In this document: positions 21,323 through 40,694 of the stretch, piece after piece
How positions within the stretch are numbered: the stretch's first letter is position 1
Layout of the letters: every line of letters starts with the position of its first letter
Source: Pseudomonadota bacterium
Lineage (GTDB): Bacteria > Pseudomonadota > Gammaproteobacteria > Burkholderiales > Burkholderiaceae_C
Length of the DNA stretch: 44,304 bases
Reading direction: 5' to 3'
Assembly: GCA_021830925.1 (NCBI GenBank)
Contig: JAKBNS010000183.1
Span: 1-44,304, forward strand
Made by a program: the position numbers and the translations under genes
The notes under the pieces: model-generated
Databases searched by the model: none
What the model was told of the DNA's origin: nothing
The model's input: the letters and a program-made list of their open reading frames with translations, nothing else

Positions 21323-21799
21323 TCAGCGCGCCAGCGGCAGGCGCACCTCGGCCTTGACCTCCTTGAGCACGATGCTCGAGCGCACGTGCGTGACTCCGGG
21401 CAGCCGGAACAGCACCTGGTGCTGGAACCGCTCGTAGCTCTCGATGTCGGGCAGCGCGATGGTCAGCAGGTAATCGGCCTGGCCCGTGGTCGACAGGCAG
21501 CGAACGATCTGCGGCTGCGCCAGCACCTCGCGCTCGAAGTCCTCCACGATGCTCTCGCTGTGCCGGCTCAGGTTGATCTCGGCCACCACCAGCAGGTGCA
21601 GGCCGACCTTGGCGCGGTCCACCAACGCCGTGTAGCCGCGCACCACGCCGCTGGCCTCCAGCTCCTTCACGCGGCGCCAGCAAGGCGTGCTCGACAGGCC
21701 GACCTTGTCCGCCAGCTGCTGCACGGTCTGGCGCGAATCCCGTTGCAGCTCCTCGAGAATGCGCAGACTGTAGGCATCGAGAACCATTTGCTCGCCCAT
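21323..21799 (-). CDS. Lrp/AsnC family transcriptional regulator
   Basis: A 158-residue feast/famine regulator. The N-terminal helix-turn-helix (LDAYSLRILEELQRDSRQTV, LADKVGLSSTPCWRRVKELEASGVVRGY) is followed by the ligand-binding RAM domain (VEINLSRHS-like strand read as VVAEINLSRHSES, then CLSTTGQADYLLTIALPDIESYERF). AAGG lies six bases before the ATG at 21799; a second ATG at 21805 directly abuts it and is less likely. It is divergent from the indolepyruvate oxidoreductase gene, so control of that gene by an amino acid or keto acid is the obvious guess. Its stop is 15 bases from the stop of the convergent c-di-GMP gene. Confidence 0.92.
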   Translation of the reverse strand: MGEQMVLDAYSLRILEELQRDSRQTVQQLADKVGLSSTPCWRRVKELEASGVVRGYTALVDRAKVGLHLLVVAEINLSRHSESIVEDFEREVLAQPQIVRCLSTTGQADYLLTIALPDIESYERFQHQVLFRLPGVTHVRSSIVLKEVKAEVRLPLAR

Positions 21800-25570: not shown

Positions 25571-26635
25571 TTACTCGTCGGAGTCGGCCCCGGTCAGGTA
25601 CCAGCAGGCCTGCGCCAACGGCGTCGGCGTGTCGGGCGGCTGCGCCAGGATCATCGGCTGCGCGCCGGCCTCGCGCAGGCGCAGCCCCGCCGCGCGCAGG
25701 CCGGCGCGCAGCCACGGCGGCCCCCCGCACTGCATCGAAAGGCTGCGCAGGCCCTGCGCCCGCGCCTGGCGCGCCGCCAGGCGCAGCACATGCGCGACCA
25801 GCGGGGCCGAGGCCTGCTGCACGAGCAGGTCGCGCACGTGCATCGCGCCGCCCTCGGTCTCGCAGGCGGCGTAGCCGGCCAGGCGCCGCGTGGCCGGGTC
25901 GACCAGCACCAGGAAACGCGTGCGATGCCAGGCGCGCGCCTCGAAGCGCCATCGCAGGAAGGGCCCATCGCGGCGCCCGAGCACGCAATCCCCCAGGGCC
26001 CGGCTGGCGCGTGCCCAGAGATCGTCGAATCGCTCGTCCGGGCCGTCCAGCCACTGTTCCCGCAGCCCGCGGCCGTGCTGCCACAGCGCGGCCGCGTGGC
26101 GCAGCGACAAGGCCGCATCCAGCGCGGCGCCCACTCCACGGCGCAGCGGCCCGGGCCAGGCGCCAGGAAGGTACGCCTCGCTGCGCAGCGCCCGCGCGTA
26201 CCGGCCCATGCCGGGCAGCACCTGGTAGCCGGCACGGCGCACCACGGGCAGCGACTTGGCGTTCGGGAAACCGTACAGCAACTCGTGGCGCTCCAGGCCC
26301 TGCTCCAGCGCGGCGCGCTGCAGCACCAGTGCCGGGTAGAGGGTGCGGTGATGGCTGTCGACCGCGAAATCGCCCATCAAGGCGCCGTCCAGTTCCCGGC
26401 CCCGCCAGCACAACCGGCGTCCGCCCAGGCCCGTGACGCCGACCACGCGGGCTTCGTGCATCAGCAGCAGCAGGCGCGGCTCGCCGGCCGGGTTGCGCAG
26501 GTAGAACCAGTCCAGCTTGAGGGGCCTGCGCTCGGCGAAACCCAGCGCCTCGCTCCACAAGGCGACGATGCTCTGCGCCTGCTCGGGCAGGCGCGCCGGC
26601 TCCACACGGTAGTCCGGGGGCCCGGCGTCAGCCAC
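25571..26635 (-). CDS. GNAT/FemAB-fold acyltransferase-like protein, last gene of ligase-ACP operon
   Basis: The 354-residue product looks like two GNAT-like halves. The first half has EALGFAERRPLKLDWFYLRNP, LDGALMGDFAVDSHHRTLYPALVLQRAALEQGL and YGFPNAKSLPVVRRAGY, which correspond to the acetyl-CoA-binding strand-helix and the Asn-rich acceptor region. The second half (from about residue 225) repeats the pattern with GRRDGPFLRWRFEA and LAGYAACETEGGAMHVRDLLV. Double-GNAT proteins of this size transfer acyl or aminoacyl groups in polysaccharide or peptidoglycan-related pathways. The GTG at 26635 overlaps the stop of the methyltransferase gene by eight bases, showing translational coupling; upstream codons in the same frame only read through that gene. 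The substrate is unknown. Confidence 0.7.
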   Translation of the reverse strand: MADAGPPDYRVEPARLPEQAQSIVALWSEALGFAERRPLKLDWFYLRNPAGEPRLLLLMHEARVVGVTGLGGRRLCWRGRELDGALMGDFAVDSHHRTLYPALVLQRAALEQGLERHELLYGFPNAKSLPVVRRAGYQVLPGMGRYARALRSEAYLPGAWPGPLRRGVGAALDAALSLRHAAALWQHGRGLREQWLDGPDERFDDLWARASRALGDCVLGRRDGPFLRWRFEARAWHRTRFLVLVDPATRRLAGYAACETEGGAMHVRDLLVQQASAPLVAHVLRLAARQARAQGLRSLSMQCGGPPWLRAGLRAAGLRLREAGAQPMILAQPPDTPTPLAQACWYLTGADSDE

Positions 26636-27554
26636 CCTGGCGCCCCGCGGCGCGGCGTGCCAGCAGCACCCGCTCGTGGCCCTGGTCGTCGCGTACCGCG
26701 CGCACCTCGTCGTAGCGCGCATCGCGGCGCGCCAGCTGCGTCATCGCGCTGCCCTGGCCCAGGCCCACTTCCACGCACAGCCAGCCGCCCGCGCGCAACA
26801 GCTCCGGCGCCTGGCGCAGCAGGCGCATCAGGATGCCCACGCCGAAGGCTCCGCCGTCGAAGGCCATCGCCGGCTCGAACCCGATGATCTCGCGCGGCAT
26901 GGTGTCCAGCCGTGCGCTCGAGATGTAGGGAGGCGCCGAGATCAGCACATCCACCGTGCCGGCCCAGGAGGTCCCGTCGAAGGGGGCCAGCAGGTCGCCC
27001 TCGTGCCAGTGCACGCGCTGCTCCAGGCCGAGTTGCACGGCGTTCTCGCGCGCCAGATCCAGCGCCTGCGCCGAAAGGTCCGCGCCGTGCACCCGCGCCG
27101 CGGGCACCGCGCGGGCCATCGCCAGCGCCAGGTTTCCGCTGCCGCAGCACACGTCGATGCAGCAGGGCGAGCCGCCCGCGGCGGCCGCCTGGCGCAGCAG
27201 TTCCAACGCCGCCTCGCCCAGCATCTCGGTCTCGCGCCGGGGAATCAGCGCGCTCGGGCGCGCCAGCAGTTCCAGCTCCATGAAGCGCTGGCGCTCCAGC
27301 AGGTAGGCCAGGGGTTCGCCGGCGAGCCGGCGCGCGATCAGCGTGTCCAGGCGCTCCAGCCCGGCGGCGTCCAGCGGCGGAGGCTCCCGCAGTTGCGCCG
27401 CCTGCACCGACACGTACAGCCCCGCGGCCCGGCACCACAGCGCGCGCAGCGCGGACTCCGGCGTTTCCTCCGGCTTGTCGGGAAGGGTCTGGAGCGACGC
27501 GCGCAAGCGCTCCAGGCCGTCGAGGCAGCGGGGGCCGCCGAAGTCGGTGGTCAT
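26628..27554 (-). CDS. PrmC/HemK-like SAM methyltransferase with altered NPPY motif
   Basis: PrmC enzymes methylate the side-chain amide of glutamine in release factors. This 308-residue paralogue has the family layout: a helical N-terminal domain, the linker LAGEPLAYLLERQRFMELEL, LIPRRETEMLGEAAL, SAM motif I IDVCCGSGNLALAMA (133-147) and the acidic ribose-binding position in GADLSAQAL. The catalytic NPPY motif reads APPY (207-210), so the Asn that holds the substrate amide is missing. It is not next to prfA. Its ATG overlaps the stop of the NAD-synthase-like gene (ATGA) and its own stop overlaps the next gene. I infer a specialised methyltransferase of the operon rather than the housekeeping PrmC. 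Confidence 0.8.
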   Translation of the reverse strand: MTTDFGGPRCLDGLERLRASLQTLPDKPEETPESALRALWCRAAGLYVSVQAAQLREPPPLDAAGLERLDTLIARRLAGEPLAYLLERQRFMELELLARPSALIPRRETEMLGEAALELLRQAAAAGGSPCCIDVCCGSGNLALAMARAVPAARVHGADLSAQALDLARENAVQLGLEQRVHWHEGDLLAPFDGTSWAGTVDVLISAPPYISSARLDTMPREIIGFEPAMAFDGGAFGVGILMRLLRQAPELLRAGGWLCVEVGLGQGSAMTQLARRDARYDEVRAVRDDQGHERVLLARRAAGRQGG

Positions 27555-28534
27555 GGGGTCGGTCCGTGCTCGTCGGCTTCGATGCGCAGCGCCGGCCAGT
27601 GCAGGTAGGCCGTGCCGCGACGCTTGGCGTCGATGTCGGCGTACACGTGGTGTGCCTGCGCCGGCTCGATGGCCAGCGCCTCGGCCAGTTGCTCCGCCGC
27701 CACCCCGTGGTCGCGCGCCCACAGCGCCAGGTCCATGCGGGACCAATCCAGCGCGAAGTAGAACTCGTCCTGCCCCTGCGCCAGGCTGTAGGTGTCGGTG
27801 GTGGGCTGGGCCTCGCAGACCTCGCGCGGCAGGCCCAGATGCCGCGCCAGCGCGTAGACCTGGGTCTTGTACAGATGCGCGATGGGCTTGAGGTCGGCCG
27901 CGCCGTCGCCGTTCTTGACAAAGAAGCCCTGGTCGAACTCCAGCCGGTTGGGCGTGCCCAGCACCGCGTAGTTCAGCGCGTCGGCGTGGTGGTACTCGAG
28001 GTTCTTGCGCACCCGCTGCTTGAAATTGGTGGCCGCCACGATGCGCAGGTAGGCCTGCAGCGGCAGGCGCCGGCGCTGCAGCTCGCCGCGCGGGTCCTGC
28101 ACCACCAGGTCGAAGAAATGCACCCGCCCGGCGGCGCCCTCGGCGATGGCCAGCTTGCTCTTCCAGCCCGCGCCGTAGTCGGGGAACAACTCGCGGATGG
28201 CCTGGTCGCGCCGCGCGTAGCACTGCAGGCCTTCGAGCGCCGGCGTGATGTCCTCGTGCAGGCAGCGCAGCCCGAGTTCGCGCGCGACCTGCTCGCCCAG
28301 GCGCGTCGAGGCCTCGCCCGACTCGCGCTCGGGCATGAGCAGCGCGACCACCCGCTGCGGGCCCAGCGCGCGCGCGGCCAGCGCCGCGCACACCGAGCTG
28401 TCGACCCCGCCGGACAGACCCAGCACCACGCCGCGGCGGTGCATGCGCGCCAGCGAGGCGCGCATGAAATCCGCGATGCGCAGCGCCTGCGCCTCGCAAT
28501 CCATCTCCAGCACCCGCGGGGACAACTGCTGCAT
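27551..28534 (-). CDS. nadE: NAD synthase-family amide synthetase
   Basis: Family members adenylate a carboxylate and replace AMP with ammonia; the classical substrate is nicotinate adenine dinucleotide. The 327-residue product has the PP-loop SGGVDSS (41-47), ATNFKQRVRKNLEYHHADAL, LGTPNRLEFDQGFFVKNGDGAADLKPIAHLYKTQVYALARHLG, which is the NAD-synthase signature region, and a C-terminal extension of about 60 residues. There is no glutaminase domain, so ammonia would be free or supplied by a partner. It is longer than the ammonia-dependent NadE of E. coli. Lying between an acyl carrier protein gene and a methyltransferase gene, it may be a dedicated amide synthetase for the pathway product or may supply NAD. 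The start is eight bases from the previous stop. Confidence 0.82.
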   Translation of the reverse strand: MQQLSPRVLEMDCEAQALRIADFMRASLARMHRRGVVLGLSGGVDSSVCAALAARALGPQRVVALLMPERESGEASTRLGEQVARELGLRCLHEDITPALEGLQCYARRDQAIRELFPDYGAGWKSKLAIAEGAAGRVHFFDLVVQDPRGELQRRRLPLQAYLRIVAATNFKQRVRKNLEYHHADALNYAVLGTPNRLEFDQGFFVKNGDGAADLKPIAHLYKTQVYALARHLGLPREVCEAQPTTDTYSLAQGQDEFYFALDWSRMDLALWARDHGVAAEQLAEALAIEPAQAHHVYADIDAKRRGTAYLHWPALRIEADEHGPTP

Positions 28535-28542
28535 GGCGCGCG

Positions 28543-28809
28543 TCAGGCCTGCGCCTCGGACCCGCGCTTGCGCTGCACGAAGGCGGCGATCGCGTCCAGC
28601 GAGTCCAGGTTCTCCGGCACCATCTCGGCGTCGAGCACGCGTACGCCGAAGGACTCCTCCAGGTACAGGATCAGCTCCAGGATGCCGGTGGAATCCACGA
28701 TGTGCCGGTCGAGCAACGAGTCGGCGTCGCCGAATTCCAGATCCTGCGCGCCCATGAGGAAGTTCTCGCGGATATAAGCCCGCACCTGCTGCTGGATGGT
28801 CGTGGCCAT
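28543..28809 (-). CDS. Acyl carrier protein (stand-alone)
   Basis: The 88-residue product is a small acidic helical protein with the phosphopantetheine site HIVDSTGILEL; Ser40 should carry the 4'-phosphopantetheine arm. The context around it (DADSLLDRHIVDSTG and LEESFGVRVLDAEMVPENLDSLDAIAAFV) matches carrier proteins of secondary pathways rather than fatty-acid AcpP. GGGAG lies seven bases before the ATG at 28809, which excludes the ATG at 28815 and the longer open frame. It is placed directly after the AMP-forming ligase gene, the natural loading enzyme. The NAD-synthase-like gene starts eight bases after its stop. Confidence 0.88.
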   Translation of the reverse strand: MATTIQQQVRAYIRENFLMGAQDLEFGDADSLLDRHIVDSTGILELILYLEESFGVRVLDAEMVPENLDSLDAIAAFVQRKRGSEAQA

Positions 28810-28846
28810 CGACATGCTCCCGTGATTGCGTGCCCCGTCGCCGCGC

Positions 28847-30388
28847 TCAGAGCAGCGAAGCGCGTCGCACCTTGCCATTGTCCGTCTGCGGCAGCTCGGA
28901 CACGAATTCCACCTGCCGCGGCACCATGAAGCTCTCCAGGCGGGCCTGGCAGTGGCGCAGCACCGCGCGCTGGTCCAGCGTGCGCCCCGGCTCCGGCACC
29001 ACGAAGGCCTTGATCGCCTCGCCCAGCAGTTCGTCGGGCACGCCCACCACCACCGCCTGTTGCACGCCGGAAATCTCGTGCAGCACGTTCTCGACCTCGC
29101 GCGGGCTGACCTTCTCGCCGCGGCTCTTGATGATGTCGTCCTTGCGCGCTACGAAATACAGCCAGCCCTGCTCGTCGCTGCGGAACAGGTCGCCGCTGTA
29201 CAGCACCATCTCGCCGGGCAGCGGCCCGGGACGCAGGCGCTCGGCGGTGGCCTGCGGCTGCCTCCAGTACCCGCGCATGACGTGGCTGCCGCGCACCACC
29301 AGCTCGCCGGTGCTGCCGTGCGGCAGGCGCCGGCCCTGCTCGTCGACCAGCCACAGTTCCTCGTTGGGCATGCCCCGCCCCACGCTGCCCGGGCGAATGT
29401 CGAGTTGCTCGGGCGGCAGGTAGCTCACGCGCTTGCATTCGGTGAGCCCGTACATGGAGTACAGCCGGGCCTGGGGAAAGGCCGCGCGGATGCGCTGGAT
29501 ATGGGCCACCGGCAGCGCCGCCGCGGTGTTGGTGACCATGCGCAGGCTGCGCAGGTCGAAACTGGAAAGATCCATGCCCAGCAGCATCGCGAACATGGTG
29601 GGCACGCCGGCGAACACCGTGGCGCCCTCGCGGGCCATGTCCTGCAGCACCCGCGCCGGATAGGTGAAGGAGCGCTCCAGCAGCACCGTGGCGCCCAGCG
29701 CGAAGGCCATCAGCACCTGGTACAGGCCGTAGTCGAAGGCCAGCGGAAGCGCGCAGGTGATGACGTCGTGTTCGTGCAGACCCAGGTAGGTGCTGACCGA
29801 ATCGAGCGCGCTGAGCATGTTGCGGTGGCTCAGCATCACCCCCTTGGGACGACCTGTGGAGCCCGAGGTGTAGATGATGGCGGCGAGGTCCAGATCGATC
29901 ACCGGCGCGGGCTCCGGCGGCCCCGCGTGCGCCTGCGGGGCCGCCGGGTAGGACACCTGCCCGGCGAGTTCCTGGGCGGGCGCGGCGTAGCCGTCGTCGG
30001 CCAGCCAGCAATGACGCACGCCGGGCGCCAGCCCCAGCGCCTGCCGCGCCACCTCGGCCAGCGCGTGCTGGGTGACCAGCGCGACGGCCTCGGAGTCCGC
30101 CAGCACGTAGGCCAGCTTGTCGGCCTTGGTCAGGGTATTCACCGGCATGAACACGGCGCCGATGCGCAGCACCGCGTAGATGGCCGCGACCATGTGCTCC
30201 GAGTTGTCCAGGAACAGCGCCACCCGGTCGCCGCGCCCGACGCCATGCGCGCGCAGGCTGGAGGCCAGCGCCGCGCTCAGCGCGTCGATGTCGGCGTAGC
30301 TGCTGCGGCGGCCCTCGCGCACCAGCGCGGTCTTTCCCGGAACGCGCCGCACCTGCGTCTCGAAGGTCTGGTGCAGCAGATGGGTCAT
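28847..30388 (-). CDS. AMP-forming acyl/amino acid ligase
   Basis: A 513-residue member of the ANL superfamily that activates a carboxylic acid as acyl-AMP and loads it on a thiol, here most likely the adjacent carrier protein. Visible motifs are the P-loop YTSGSTGRPKGVMLSH (from 173), LPLAFDYGLYQVLMAF, YGLTECKR (A5), YSGDLF and RKDDIIKSRGEKVSPREVE (A7-A8), and the C-terminal catalytic Lys506 in NGKVRR. The shape is that of the stand-alone acyl-CoA/ACP ligases found in capsule or exosortase-type clusters. The substrate pocket cannot be read with confidence. The ATG at 30388 lies 44 bases after the amidotransferase stop; a ribosome-binding site is poor. Confidence 0.88.
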   Translation of the reverse strand: MTHLLHQTFETQVRRVPGKTALVREGRRSSYADIDALSAALASSLRAHGVGRGDRVALFLDNSEHMVAAIYAVLRIGAVFMPVNTLTKADKLAYVLADSEAVALVTQHALAEVARQALGLAPGVRHCWLADDGYAAPAQELAGQVSYPAAPQAHAGPPEPAPVIDLDLAAIIYTSGSTGRPKGVMLSHRNMLSALDSVSTYLGLHEHDVITCALPLAFDYGLYQVLMAFALGATVLLERSFTYPARVLQDMAREGATVFAGVPTMFAMLLGMDLSSFDLRSLRMVTNTAAALPVAHIQRIRAAFPQARLYSMYGLTECKRVSYLPPEQLDIRPGSVGRGMPNEELWLVDEQGRRLPHGSTGELVVRGSHVMRGYWRQPQATAERLRPGPLPGEMVLYSGDLFRSDEQGWLYFVARKDDIIKSRGEKVSPREVENVLHEISGVQQAVVVGVPDELLGEAIKAFVVPEPGRTLDQRAVLRHCQARLESFMVPRQVEFVSELPQTDNGKVRRASLL

Positions 30389-30432
30389 GGGGGTGGCGGG
30401 CTCGGGAGTGCGACCGGCGAGTTTACGGAATT

Positions 30433-32385
30433 TCAGGACACCCCAGGCTCCCGGCTTCGCGGGGGCTCGCCGCGCACGAACTGCCGATGCAGCAACATGG
30501 TGGACAACACGCCGACGAAGGCCATGTTGTCGGCGAAGCCGATGGCCCTTCCGGCCCGGCACTTGGCGAGCAGTCGCGCGACCGCGGACGGGTCGAAGTA
30601 CCCGGCCTCGCCCAACGACGCCGGCGCCAGCAGTTCGGCCACCCAGTCCCGCTCCACGCCGCCCTCGAAAAAGCAGCGGCTGTCGGGCGCGCGGTACGGC
30701 TGCTTGGATCGCTCCAGCACCTCGCGCGGCAGCAGTCCGCGCATGGCCCGCTTGAGCAGCCACTTCTCGTTCAGTCCCATCAGCTTGTAGCGTGCCGGCA
30801 GGCGCGACGCGAACTCGATCAGGTGATGATCCAGGAAGGGGAAGCGCCCCTCGACCGCGTGCGCCATGGCCATGCGATCGCCCTGCGTGCACAACAGATA
30901 TTGCGACAGCAGCGTGGTCGCTTCGATGTACTGGTCCTGCTGCAGCGGCCCCCAGCCGGCGAACGCCGCGGGCAGGCCGCGCGCCAGGTCGCCGGCGACG
31001 TCGCGCTCGCGCAGGGCCTCGCGCACATCGCCGGAGAACATCTGCCAGCAACGCTGGGTGGTGCTCCAGCGGGTCATGTGTCCGTAGCCGGGCAAGGCCA
31101 GCTTGTCGGGATCGGCGCGGAAAAAACCCCGCGCCAGCGCGGCGCTGGCGGTGGGCGAGCGCGTCAGGTACGGGTACAGGCGGCTGAGCAGGCCGGCGCG
31201 CCATGCCGAGTCCGGCGCGCGCGCCATGAAGCGGCGCACCCTGGCCTCCTTGAACAGGTCGTAGCCGCCGAACACTTCGTCGGCCCCTTCCCCGGTGAGC
31301 ACGACCTTGTAGCCGGCGCCATGCACCTGTCGCGCCAGCAGCATCAGCGGCACGGGGGCGGTACGCAGCATCGGCGTCTCGGCATGCCAGACCGCCTGCG
31401 CGAAGGCCTGCGCGATGTCCTCGTCGCGGCAGCGCCACTGCGTGTGTTCGCAGCCGAGCTCGCGCACCAGCGACAGCTGCTGCTCGCCCTCGTCGAATTC
31501 CGGATCGTCGAAGCGGATCGAGAAGGTGCGCAGACGCCGCGCGCCGGCCTGCCTGGCCAGCGCCGCCACCGCCGCGGAATCGAGCCCGCCGCTGAGATAG
31601 GCCCCCACGGGCACGTCGGCGCGCAGGCGCTGCTCCACGCTGGCCTGCAGGCGCTGCCGGAGTTCATCCGCCAGGGTGTCGGCGTCGACGTCCTGCGCGA
31701 AGTCCTCGCGCCGCGGGAAGCTCCAGTCCCAGTAGCGCCATGCGCGCTCGCCGTCGTCGTCGATCGCCAGGCAGCTGCCCGGCTCCAGGCTGCGCACCCC
31801 CTCGAAGGGACTGTGCCCGGCCAGCGGACCCCAGGTCGTGAACACCTCGGCGAGCACCTGCGGGTCCAGGCGCGGGCTCCACCCCGGCATGGCCAGCAGC
31901 GCCTTGACCTCGGAGGCGAATCCCAGGCGCGAGCCGTCGCGACGCAGGAACAGCGGCCGGATTCCGGTCCGGTCCCGGGCCAGCAGCAGGCGCCGGCGGC
32001 GCGCGTCCCACAGCGCGAAGGCGAACTGTCCGTCGAGGCGCTCGACCAGCGCGTCGCCCCAGGTCTCGTAGCCGTGCACCAGCACCTCGGTGTCGCAATG
32101 GCTGCGAAAACCGTGGCCGAGCGCGAGCAGCTGGCGGCGCAACTCCGCGTGGTTGTAGATCTCGCCGTTGAAACTCACCCAGACGCTGGCGTCCTCGTTG
32201 GCCATCGGCTGGGCGCCGGCGTTCGGGTCGATCACCGCCAGCCGGGCGTGGCCGAGCACGGCCGGCCCGCAGGCGCGCACGCCGTGGCCGTCCGGCCCCC
32301 GGTGGTGCAGGGCCCGCACCATGGCGCCGACCACCTCGGCCGAGGGCGCCTGGCGAAAATCGAGCAGACCGGCCACGCCGCACAT
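30433..32385 (-). CDS. asnB: Asparagine synthase-type glutamine amidotransferase
   Basis: The 650-residue product has an N-terminal class II glutaminase domain starting MCGVAGLLDF with catalytic Cys2, HHRGPDG, RLAVIDPNAGAQPM and FNGEIYNHAELR, and a C-terminal synthetase domain with the PP-loop YLSGGLDSAAVAALA (SGGLDS at 265-270) and TGEGADEVFGGYDLF. It should use glutamine and ATP to turn a carboxylate into an amide. Paralogues of this length occur in O-antigen, capsule and exosortase-type clusters, where they amidate sugar acids or other carboxylates instead of aspartate. The gap to the SDR gene upstream is 15 bases. The ligase-carrier protein context argues for such a dedicated role. Confidence 0.87.
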   Translation of the reverse strand: MCGVAGLLDFRQAPSAEVVGAMVRALHHRGPDGHGVRACGPAVLGHARLAVIDPNAGAQPMANEDASVWVSFNGEIYNHAELRRQLLALGHGFRSHCDTEVLVHGYETWGDALVERLDGQFAFALWDARRRRLLLARDRTGIRPLFLRRDGSRLGFASEVKALLAMPGWSPRLDPQVLAEVFTTWGPLAGHSPFEGVRSLEPGSCLAIDDDGERAWRYWDWSFPRREDFAQDVDADTLADELRQRLQASVEQRLRADVPVGAYLSGGLDSAAVAALARQAGARRLRTFSIRFDDPEFDEGEQQLSLVRELGCEHTQWRCRDEDIAQAFAQAVWHAETPMLRTAPVPLMLLARQVHGAGYKVVLTGEGADEVFGGYDLFKEARVRRFMARAPDSAWRAGLLSRLYPYLTRSPTASAALARGFFRADPDKLALPGYGHMTRWSTTQRCWQMFSGDVREALRERDVAGDLARGLPAAFAGWGPLQQDQYIEATTLLSQYLLCTQGDRMAMAHAVEGRFPFLDHHLIEFASRLPARYKLMGLNEKWLLKRAMRGLLPREVLERSKQPYRAPDSRCFFEGGVERDWVAELLAPASLGEAGYFDPSAVARLLAKCRAGRAIGFADNMAFVGVLSTMLLHRQFVRGEPPRSREPGVS

Positions 32386-32400
32386 GAAGCGCGACGGGAA

Positions 32401-33204
32401 TCAGTAATGAATGCTGCGCGGCGCGCCGCCGCCCACGGCGATCGCGTCGCCGTTGATGGCGCGCGAACGCGGCGAGCACAGGAAGGCCACCACGTCGGCC
32501 ACCTCGGAGGCGTCCACCAGGTGGTGGATGGAATTGCGCGCGGCCATCTCCTGCTCGATCACGGCGGGCTCGACGCCGCGCGCCGTCGCCGTGGCGGCCA
32601 CCAGTTCCGGCGTGCGCTCGGTGCGCGTGGTGCCGGGGTGCACCACCGTGGCCTGGATGCCGAAACGGCCGAGCTCGTCGGCCATGTTCTTGGTCAGCGC
32701 GGCCACCGCGATGTTGCGCATGCTGCCCACCGCGTGCCCGGTCTGGCGCGCGCCCAGGCCGCTGACGTTGACGATGCGCCCCCAGCCGCGCTCGCGCATG
32801 CCCGGCACCACCGCCTGGGCGCAGCGCAGGTAGCCCATGACCTTGGTGTCGACCTCGCCGAGCAGGTAGTCGGCACGGATGCTCTCGATGCCGGGCGGCG
32901 CCGCGTAGCCCGAGGGCTCGGCGGCGGCGTTGACCAGGATGTCGATGCCCCCGCCGAGCAGGCGTTCGGCCTCGCGCACCGCCGCGCGCACCTGCGCGTC
33001 GTCGGTCGTGTCGGCGCGCACCGCGACCACCGTGGCGGCGCATTGCATGGCCAGTTCGTCCGCCGCCTCGCGCAGCGCCGCTTCGCCGCGCGCCAGCAGC
33101 GCCACCAGCGCGCCTTCCTGCGCCAGCGCCCGCGCCACGGCCTTGCCGATGCCCCGGCTGCCGCCGGTCACCAGCGCGCGTTTGCCCGAAAGTTGCAGAT
33201 CCAT
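32401..33204 (-). CDS. SDR-family protein lacking the YxxxK catalytic pair
   Basis: A 267-residue Rossmann-fold short-chain dehydrogenase/reductase homologue. The cofactor loop VTGGSRGIGKAVA (12-24), NAAAEPSGY and the active-site Ser148 in RIVNVSGL are present. Where classical members have YSASKAAVAALTK, this protein has GSMRNIAVAALTK, so the catalytic Tyr is Gly160 and the Lys is Asn164. HPGTTRTERTPE after it is intact. Either it uses another proton donor or it has a non-redox role. GGAGCAAGG lies just before the ATG at 33204. It is the first gene of the tight run that continues into the amidotransferase. Confidence 0.82.
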   Translation of the reverse strand: MDLQLSGKRALVTGGSRGIGKAVARALAQEGALVALLARGEAALREAADELAMQCAATVVAVRADTTDDAQVRAAVREAERLLGGGIDILVNAAAEPSGYAAPPGIESIRADYLLGEVDTKVMGYLRCAQAVVPGMRERGWGRIVNVSGLGARQTGHAVGSMRNIAVAALTKNMADELGRFGIQATVVHPGTTRTERTPELVAATATARGVEPAVIEQEMAARNSIHHLVDASEVADVVAFLCSPRSRAINGDAIAVGGGAPRSIHY

Positions 33205-33268: not shown

Positions 33269-34150
33269 TCATGCGCGCCGCGCCAGCAGCCGATGATGCA
33301 GCGAGGGAATCTGGTTCAGCGCCAGCCCGCTCACCACCATCGCGCCGGCCAGCAGCTTCCAGCCCTGCAGCGGTTCGTGCAGCACCAGCGTGGCGCAGAT
33401 CATTCCGCTGATCGGCACCAGCAACGTGAACGGGGCGATCTGCGCCGCCGGGTAGCGGCGCATCAGCACCGACCACACGCCGAAGCCGAACAGGGTCGCC
33501 GGATAGGCCTGGAACGCCACCACCAGCCAGGAGTTCGCGTCCATGCCGCGCAGGGCCTGCAGGTCGGTCCCCGCGCCCTCGAACACCAGGGACATCAGCA
33601 GCAGAGGCACGCAGGCGTACAGGCTGGCCCAGGAGGCCAGCGCGACCGCGTTCACCGGCCCGATGCGCCGCGCCAGCACGTTGGCCACGGCCCACGACAC
33701 GGCGCCCGCGATCAGCAGCAGCAGGCCGATCAGCGTGGTGCGCTGCTGCAGGTTCAAGGCCACCACCCCCATGCCGGCGAGCGCGACGGCCGCGCCCAGC
33801 AACTGCACCGGGCGCGCCTTCTCGCGCAGCACGGCCCAGGCCAGCCCGATGGTGAAAAAAGCCTGCAACTGCATGACGATGGACGACAGCCCGGCGGCCA
33901 TGCCCAGTTTCAGCCCGGTCAGCAGGAAGCCGAACTGCACCGCGAACTGGGCCATGCCCCAGGCGGCCACGCGCTGCCAGGGCAGCTTGGGATGGCGCAC
34001 CAGCAGCACCACCGGAAACGCCGCGAAGCCGAAGCGCATGGCACAGAACAGCAGCGGGGGCAGGCCGCGCAGCCCCAGCTTCATGACCACGAAATTGCTG
34101 CCCCAGATGGCGACCGTCAACAACGCCAGCGACAGATCACGAACGCGCAT
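33269..34150 (-). CDS. EamA/DMT-superfamily exporter
   Basis: A 293-residue inner-membrane protein with ten hydrophobic helices in two repeated halves (SLALLTVAIWGSNFVVMKLGL at the start of the first; LLLLIAGAVSWAVANVLARRIG at the start of the second). That is the EamA drug/metabolite transporter pattern, close to the O-acetylserine/cysteine exporter branch. It starts nine bases after the xth stop and ends 64 bases before the SDR start on the same strand. It could export the product of the downstream operon, but co-transcription is only inferred from direction and spacing. Confidence 0.85.
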   Translation of the reverse strand: MRVRDLSLALLTVAIWGSNFVVMKLGLRGLPPLLFCAMRFGFAAFPVVLLVRHPKLPWQRVAAWGMAQFAVQFGFLLTGLKLGMAAGLSSIVMQLQAFFTIGLAWAVLREKARPVQLLGAAVALAGMGVVALNLQQRTTLIGLLLLIAGAVSWAVANVLARRIGPVNAVALASWASLYACVPLLLMSLVFEGAGTDLQALRGMDANSWLVVAFQAYPATLFGFGVWSVLMRRYPAAQIAPFTLLVPISGMICATLVLHEPLQGWKLLAGAMVVSGLALNQIPSLHHRLLARRA

Positions 34151-38807: not shown

Positions 38808-39180
38808 GGAACTGCCCTCCTCGCTACGCTCGACTCCCCGAGGGAGTGGAGCGCCGCTTCGGAGCGGCCGTGCGCGGCGCTCCGGACTGCCCTCCTCGCT
38901 ACGCTCGACTCCCCGAGGGAGTGGAGCGCCGCTTCGAAGCGGCCGTGCGCGGCGCTCCGGACTGCCCTCCTCGCTACGCTCGACTCCCCGAGGGAGTGGA
39001 GCGCCGCTTCGGAGCGGCCGTGCGCGGCGCTCCGGACTGCCCTCCTCGCTACGCTCGACTCCCCGAGGGAGTGGAGCGCCGCTTCGGAGCGGCCGTGCGC
39101 GGCGCTCCGGACTGCCCTCCTCGCTACGCTCGACTCCCCGAGGGAGTGGAGCGCCGCTTCGGAGCGGCCGTGCGCGGCGC
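38808..39180 (-). repeat. Five 75-bp tandem repeats filling the gatC-gatA gap
   Basis: The whole 373-base gap between the gatC stop and the gatA start is an array of five head-to-tail 75-base copies (about 38811-39181), with copy starts at 38811, 38886, 38961, 39036 and 39111. Copies are identical except for one G-to-A change at 38937. In the sense of transcription each copy reads GGAGCGCCGC...GCGGCGCTCC (a ten-base stem), ACTCCC-TCG-GGGAGT (a six-base stem) and GAGGAGGGCAGT, which contains a ribosome-binding site. The first transcribed copy starts in the gatC stop codon and the last ends as the gatA Shine-Dalgarno. The 75-base period equals 25 codons, so frames stay open across it. Confidence 0.95.

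Positions 39181-40694
<1,514 letters not shown>

Follow-up and report, generated by a model that had tools for sequence, protein, structure and literature searches.

What does a bacterium make with a stand-alone carrier protein encoded beside an adenylating ligase and relatives of AsnB, NadE and PrmC? The question is raised by contig JAKBNS010000183.1 of assembly GCA_021830925.1, from a Pseudomonadota bacterium of the Burkholderiaceae_C, of which positions 1 to 44,304 (hereafter the window) were analysed. On its minus strand lies a run of seven genes that encode a short-chain dehydrogenase/reductase (SDR), an AsnB-type amidotransferase (AsnB), an AMP-forming ligase of the ANL type, the carrier protein, a NadE-like protein, a PrmC-like methyltransferase and a tandem GNAT protein. 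The intergenic distances from SDR to GNAT are 15, 44, 31, 8, -4 and -8 bases, and re-reading of the coordinates bore out an earlier note on this DNA, which had placed the seven genes on one strand with overlaps or short gaps, the largest of 44 bases. We give about even credence to the reading that this operon is a carrier-protein-dependent pathway whose product is a small building block, acyl or aminoacyl, with an amide group, and the module is probably a recurrent carrier-based amide pathway in many proteobacteria.

Recurrence of a four-gene core

The NadE-like protein was used as a tblastn query (E 1e-3) against 84,980 species genomes, which yielded 440 stretches with a relative, some of which may encode ordinary NadE, and the best 80 of them (56-96% identical, a choice biased to near relatives) were kept. 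A hundred loci were scored, with L001-L013, L094 and L096-L108 left out, and 40 of the hundred had shorter flanks, so that the counts refer to the 60 loci in which each flank of NadE reaches 7.5 kb or more; they depend on hand-chosen score thresholds, on a carrier profile built from 77 of the 79 extracted carriers and on gene calls that are crude in the high-GC DNA of the relatives. A ligase and a carrier were found in all 60 loci and AsnB in 55, GNAT occurred in 35 and PrmC in 32, and an EamA-family exporter (6/60) and SDR (5/60) were restricted to near relatives of the window. Two of 300 genomes sampled from the order have the NadE-like subfamily NF002048, as do 15 of 398 genomes drawn evenly within the phylum, the window's own genome being counted in both; the other 14 genomes of the phylum sample, 11 of which are also among the 60, hold ligase and carrier in every case, AsnB in 13, and PrmC and GNAT in 6 each.

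These co-occurrence counts confirmed that the operon is more than a chance arrangement. The core consists of four genes (AsnB, ligase, carrier and NadE-like), and PrmC and GNAT are frequent options. A fixed seven-gene operon is ruled out by the few loci with SDR or EamA; the conserved set of seven assumed in the earlier note was therefore replaced by the four-gene core, the genes of which are by no means only occasionally adjacent. A phage-borne set was also rejected, the NadE-like protein having no match in the phage collection at E 1e-20, and so was an anti-phage system, since of the seven proteins scanned only PrmC matched PADLOC, over its methyltransferase domain. Among the papers listed by searches of an open-access library, outside which most subscription papers lie, none describes the whole module, and some deal with partial relatives of it.

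The order AsnB-ligase-carrier-NadE is found in many betaproteobacterial records and AsnB-carrier-ligase-NadE on Sinorhizobium, Mesorhizobium, Shinella and Nitratireductor plasmids, and five Sedimenticola records have AsnB, carrier, ligase and PrmC on the strand opposite NadE. Since gene order varies in this manner, the constant feature is co-occurrence and not a single transcript. The five loci without AsnB in their flanks are L027, L043, L057, L059 and L115. As a separate observation, the ligase, NadE and PrmC of ten loci, several of them labelled Thiomonas (L024, L026, L027, L032, L033, L037, L040, L043, L048 and L059), adjoin a glutamine-synthetase-like gene, named by sequence reading, and AsnB was not found in the DNA examined there.

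Matches to the NadE-like protein occur in 116 plasmid records, 76 of which are from Sinorhizobium. On pSymB of S. meliloti 1021, AsnB, carrier, ligase and NadE lie in one run as they do in the window, with 46-56% identity to the window proteins, but there the carrier precedes the ligase, and the PrmC-like protein of S. meliloti keeps an NPPY motif. From matching neighbours and the cited papers, the carrier and the ligase were identified as SMb20651 and SMb20650, the latter described as a predicted long-chain acyl-CoA ligase. In the accessible part of one paper (PMC7232532), SMb20650 is co-transcribed with SMb20651, its expression in E. coli leads to acylated SMb20651, and it cannot replace FadD, no fadD complementation having been obtained for growth on oleate. 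The portion available of another (PMC12391972) assigns no known function to SMb20651 and points out a DST motif in it that is common to all 79 extracted carriers.

No SDR or EamA match was found within 10 kb of the S. meliloti 1021 core; strain ml21 has a PrmC-like gene and a hypothetical protein of 373 residues at a distance of about 12 kb from the core. On a Mesorhizobium plasmid, the core is adjoined by HemK/PrmC and by a hypothetical protein about 370 residues long, Nitratireductor and Shinella plasmids have such a protein directly before AsnB, and on an Azospirillum plasmid, which also has the core, an annotated GNAT follows NadE directly. The Mesorhizobium, Nitratireductor and Shinella hypothetical proteins match the GNAT profile with 25-33 bits, or 148-187 bits after iteration with such matches included, and the GNAT counts lean on this iterated profile.

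Enzymes of the module and their associations

The closest solved structures to the ligase are adenylation domains of nonribosomal peptide synthetases, and those closest to the carrier are peptidyl carriers, including PltL and PigG. The ligase scored 296 bits against the amino-acid adenylation model TIGR01733 (cut-off 317) and 482 bits against its best named match, the XrtA-associated ligase TIGR03098 (cut-off 592). The carrier reached at best 52 and 44 bits in NCBIfam, both below the cut-offs, and had no Pfam match at E 0.001; its DSTG motif is present in 79 of 79 carrier homologues. A free ligase with a free carrier is shared with stand-alone adenylation enzyme and peptidyl carrier pairs, which we take to be PltF/PltL and PigI/PigG and whose carriers are close to that of the window in the PDB. 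Unlike these pairs, the window module has two amide-forming enzymes, and a proline-oxidising partner was neither sought nor seen.

In adenylation domains, an Asp binds the amino group of the substrate and a C-terminal Lys is catalytic. The window ligase has this Lys and, in alignment with LgrA, an Asp at the amino-acid adenylation position, which we take to be equivalent to GrsA Asp235. The Asp was found in 51 of 88 ligases, most of the others having Ser, Gly, Ala or Asn, and two further positions of the pocket always hold Arg and Met. This variation suggests at least two substrate classes that would share a common part. The full pocket code is presumably D-Y-Y-A-T-T-M-R-V-K, the positions having been hand-assigned from the GrsA sequence.

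AsnB scored 496 bits against TIGR01536 (cut-off 267) and has the N-terminal Cys and the SGGLDS loop; among 70 homologues, MCG is found in 67 and LSGGLDS in 69. Its best solved relative is the hydroxyamidotransferase 7ylz, its second-best match is the XrtA amidotransferase TIGR03108 (410 bits, cut-off 817), and the N-acetylglutaminylglutamine amide amidotransferase TIGR03104 gave 387 bits (cut-off 570). Several other Asn_synthase matches lie elsewhere in the genome.

The NadE-like protein matches NF002048 with 471.4 bits (cut-off 313), and its modelled fold is that of NAD synthetase (best match 2e18, TM score 0.82 by target length), with which it shares the SGG.DS adenylation loop and the GDG region. 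It differs from NAD synthetase in its regular association with a ligase and a carrier, in the presence of another nadE in the genome (on contig C47, 27% identical over 197 residues) and in an insertion about 50 residues long, since some 60 residues of this protein fall between positions 89 and 99 of the profile. The insertion was modelled as a helix and three strands and contains residues that are invariant across 46 aligned NadE-like proteins, taken from the 80 loci and the window; that it docks the carrier protein is a guess. The available part of a paper on the NAD synthetase family makes no mention of an acyl carrier or a paralog.

The PrmC-like protein resembles the release-factor glutamine methyltransferase PrmC/HemK over the whole domain and lies only 3 bits above the TIGR03534 cut-off (202 against 199.1 bits). 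It differs from that enzyme in reading APPY, in tracking the ligase subtype and in having other HemK-family copies in its genome, two of which pass the cut-off and read NPPY. In PrmC, the NPPY motif holds the glutamine amide. The Asn is kept in 21 of 47 PrmC homologues and replaced by Ala or Leu in 26, the APPY of the window included; APPY or LPPY is what the clade of the window and Thiomonas relatives have. Because of this replacement, N-methylation of a carboxamide, which had been proposed by analogy with true PrmC, is doubtful in the window's clade. As a side observation, automatic annotation would probably misname the gene at 26628-27554 as release-factor PrmC, the cut-off being passed and NPPY lost.

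Additionally, PrmC accompanies the ligase at 53 of the 56 Asp loci and is missing from all 40 loci without Asp, a locus being counted as Asp if any of its ligases has it, which puts L079 on the Asp side and L081 among the exceptions. The Asp-ligase loci without PrmC are L095 (in which PrmC lies farther off, as in strain ml21), L119 and L081. When the ligase nearest NadE was used and the PrmC of L095 was set by hand as present, the PrmC counts became 52 of 53 for Asp loci and 1 of 42 for the rest. GNAT has no such link to the ligase Asp (24/56 versus 23/40 loci), and a quick ligase tree shows no fewer than five changes of the Asp, with PrmC changing along with it. From the co-occurrence of PrmC and Asp ligase, we infer that the PrmC-like enzyme acts on the acid chosen by the ligase. 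Separately, L079 combines an Asp-type and an Ala-type ligase with PrmC and GNAT at one locus, which looks like a meeting of two module versions.

The GNAT protein had no Pfam, NCBIfam or PADLOC match at E 0.001. Its AlphaFold2 model (mean predicted local distance difference test score 93.6, predicted template modelling score 0.90) has two GNAT folds in one chain, which agrees with the double-GNAT assignment made from the translated sequence, and in Foldseek it matches tandem GNAT structures over nearly its full length, namely Eis/Eis2 and the clavulanic-acid tandem GNAT. Among the 14 sampled genomes there are six in which hand-picked neighbours are thioesterases or adenylation-thioesterase fusions according to Pfam, and a profile made from these six loci detects them and a seventh genome. 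Thioesterase and GNAT never occur together: among the 14 genomes there are 7 with thioesterase, 6 with GNAT and 1 with neither, and among the 60 loci 4, 35 and 21, respectively. This exclusion fits two alternative releases of one carrier-bound group. Proteins with adenylation and thioesterase domains directly adjoin the module in two genomes (L109:2359-5112 and L114:9462-12251), and a long frame of L116 also gave a match to the thioesterase profile.

A pathway on the carrier and its alternatives

In the proposed pathway, the ANL ligase would adenylate a small carboxylic acid, which for this subtype is probably an amino acid, and load it onto the DSTG carrier. Judging from family chemistry, AsnB, supplied with ammonia by glutamine, and the NadE-like protein, using free ammonia or another amine, would each adenylate a carboxylate and convert it to an amide. 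The PrmC-like methyltransferase may act on the ligase-selected acid before or after loading, and the tandem GNAT would pass the carrier-bound acyl group on to an amine, a place that a thioesterase may take in some genomes of other classes. In the window's clade, SDR would modify the product and EamA would perhaps export it, and in some relatives the product is more likely attached to exopolysaccharide. Of the earlier note's overall reading, the carrier-based pathway with two amide-forming families is supported by the co-occurrence of the core and by the acylation of the S. meliloti carrier (reported in the available part of PMC7232532), the seven-gene set was given up, and the PrmC N-methylation is doubtful in this clade.

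Several points weigh against this pathway. No step past ligase, carrier and NadE is universal: AsnB is absent from the flanks of 5 of the 60 loci, PrmC from 28, GNAT from 25, and both GNAT and thioesterase from 21. Most of the genomes with a thioesterase are relatives of one another on the NadE tree. In independent contrasts, PrmC changed in the same way as the ligase Asp in 4.5 of 5 cases and in the opposite way in none, with a median p of 0.0625, five contrasts being too few for significance; these pair tests do not include L079, and the trees were made by a quick method that gave long-branch warnings. The Asp is lacking in 37 of the 88 ligases, and the reading of the pocket relies on one aligned residue and on an assumed GrsA numbering. 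The full pocket code matches no specificity that we know of and gives no useful substrate prediction, nor do we know of a substrate or product for any member of the module. That the NadE-like protein or AsnB would act on a carrier-bound acid is an assumption.

The best-surviving alternative is decoration of a surface glycan, in which the acyl group made by the module would be put on a sugar of an exopolysaccharide or other glycan by GNAT or other transferases, the module taking the place of the ligase, carrier and amidotransferase for which XrtA/PEP-CTERM models are named; we regard it as unlikely. The ligase and AsnB have their best and second-best matches, respectively, in the XrtA/PEP-CTERM models TIGR03098 and TIGR03108, and both scores are below the cut-offs; the NadE-like and PrmC-like genes are, as we take it, not part of the XrtA/PEP-CTERM set. 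Of seven marker clusters for XrtA exopolysaccharide, two or more were found in 13 of 82 loci; when one representative of each cluster was scanned, four were above the NCBIfam cut-off, two below it and one without match, and two or more of those four clusters occur in 9 of 82. The Azospirillum copy has glycosyltransferases and a polysaccharide deacetylase next to it. However, most of the 82 loci lack XrtA markers, and the neighbours of the module in the window's clade are gatC, gatA, gatB, an exonuclease-family gene and EamA. No glycosyltransferase was found by Pfam among 20 other frames of the window; 10 of the 20 have no match and many of those ten are probably not genes, so this negative does not extend to the ends of the window. 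An exosortase link in the window's own genome was rejected, as its assembly, about 90% complete, has no PF09721 match at E 0.001. The idea of a modified surface sugar, raised in the earlier note, thus keeps some ground among the relatives with XrtA markers and loses it in the window's own genome. As separate observations, a ketoacyl-ACP-synthase-III-like gene is present in 14 of 82 loci (its representative below the model cut-offs), and the available part of a paper on floc formation describes two asparagine synthetase genes in a polysaccharide cluster.

Still less probable is a lipid pathway, in which ligase and carrier would handle a fatty acid for an aminolipid and GNAT would serve as its N-acyltransferase. 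The carrier shows a weak similarity to OlsHI, a carrier model for ornithine lipids (52 bits against a cut-off of 130), and the long-chain acyl-CoA label of the S. meliloti ligase, which acylates its carrier, would also agree with it. Against this, that same ligase did not complement fadD on oleate, the window ligase is nearest to amino-acid adenylation domains, and an aminolipid has no need of two amide-forming enzymes. Separately, a paper on ornithine lipids, in the part available, reports that OlsH needs no carrier protein. Finally, that ordinary duplicates of asnB, nadE and prmC lie together by accident is very improbable, for although the NCBIfam names (asparagine synthase, NAD synthase and release-factor methyltransferase) each come with a score above the curated cut-off, the separate nadE with its low identity, the two other HemK-family genes and the other Asn_synthase genes rule out sole housekeeping copies, and the accident is already contradicted by recurrence of the core in many lineages.

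Gene positions, surroundings and meaning

The positions of the genes and motifs are collected below; the source assembly comprises 3.57 Mb.

Table 1. Features of the module in the window (positions counted from its first base)
Feature	Position	Strand	Basis or remark
EamA-family exporter	33269..34150	-	PF00892, 113 bits; part of the run in close relatives only
Short-chain dehydrogenase/reductase (SDR)	32401..33204	-	Pfam and NCBIfam
AsnB-type glutamine amidotransferase, N-terminal Cys and SGGLDS loop	30433..32385	-	GATase and Asn_synthase domains
AMP-forming (ANL) ligase, predicted carrier loader	28847..30388	-	AMP-binding domain and its C-terminal domain
Codon of the ligase Asp aligned with the FD Asp of amino-acid adenylation domains	29732..29734	-	LgrA alignment; position hand-counted
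Stand-alone carrier protein, 90 residues, ATG at 28815	28543..28815	-	Best solved relatives are peptidyl carrier proteins
DSTG motif with expected phosphopantetheine Ser	28684..28695	-	Position hand-counted
NadE-like N-type ATP pyrophosphatase, predicted amide-forming	27551..28534	-	NF002048 subfamily, 471.4 bits
Insertion in the NadE-like protein, about residues 105-165	28040..28222	-	Relative to the NAD_synthase profile; structure model
PrmC/HemK-like methyltransferase, 308 residues	26628..27554	-	PrmC_N and methyltransferase domains; TIGR03534
APPY in place of PrmC NPPY	26925..26936	-	Homologue alignment
Tandem-GNAT acyltransferase, 354 residues, GTG start at 26635	25571..26635	-	8-base overlap with the PrmC gene end; AlphaFold2 model

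The EamA gene lies 64 bases upstream of SDR on the same strand, and its product scored 194 bits against the O-acetylserine/cysteine exporter model (cut-off 472). An adjacent exporter had been thought to fit a secreted product; its position next to SDR holds for the window, but not for the module at large, given its presence in so few of the 60 loci. Farther upstream of EamA are the exonuclease-family gene, gatB, gatA and gatC, with mreB on the opposite strand. Between gatC and gatA (38811-39182), five near-perfect copies of a 75-base unit were observed (99% matches), and at 21326-21796 on the minus strand an Lrp/AsnC-family regulator adjoins a plus-strand gene for a large POR/DUF6537 protein.

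A wider proposal is possible, if tentative, namely that the module represents a hitherto undescribed small-molecule pathway class re-using relatives of two housekeeping enzymes. A NadE-family enzyme would amidate a carrier-bound acid, or make an amidine of it, with the insertion docking the carrier, a PrmC-family enzyme would methylate a small molecule and not a release factor, and the same core would lead to soluble amides in some bacteria and to glycan decoration in others, which would explain the orphan S. meliloti carrier SMb20651. The housekeeping names given to genes of this recurrent module probably hide another function, an orphan rhizobial carrier protein is connected with a defined set of partners, and the link between PrmC and the ligase offers a direct way to approach the substrate. 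Should the NadE-like and PrmC-like proteins indeed act on carrier-bound small molecules, both families would gain a new kind of substrate.

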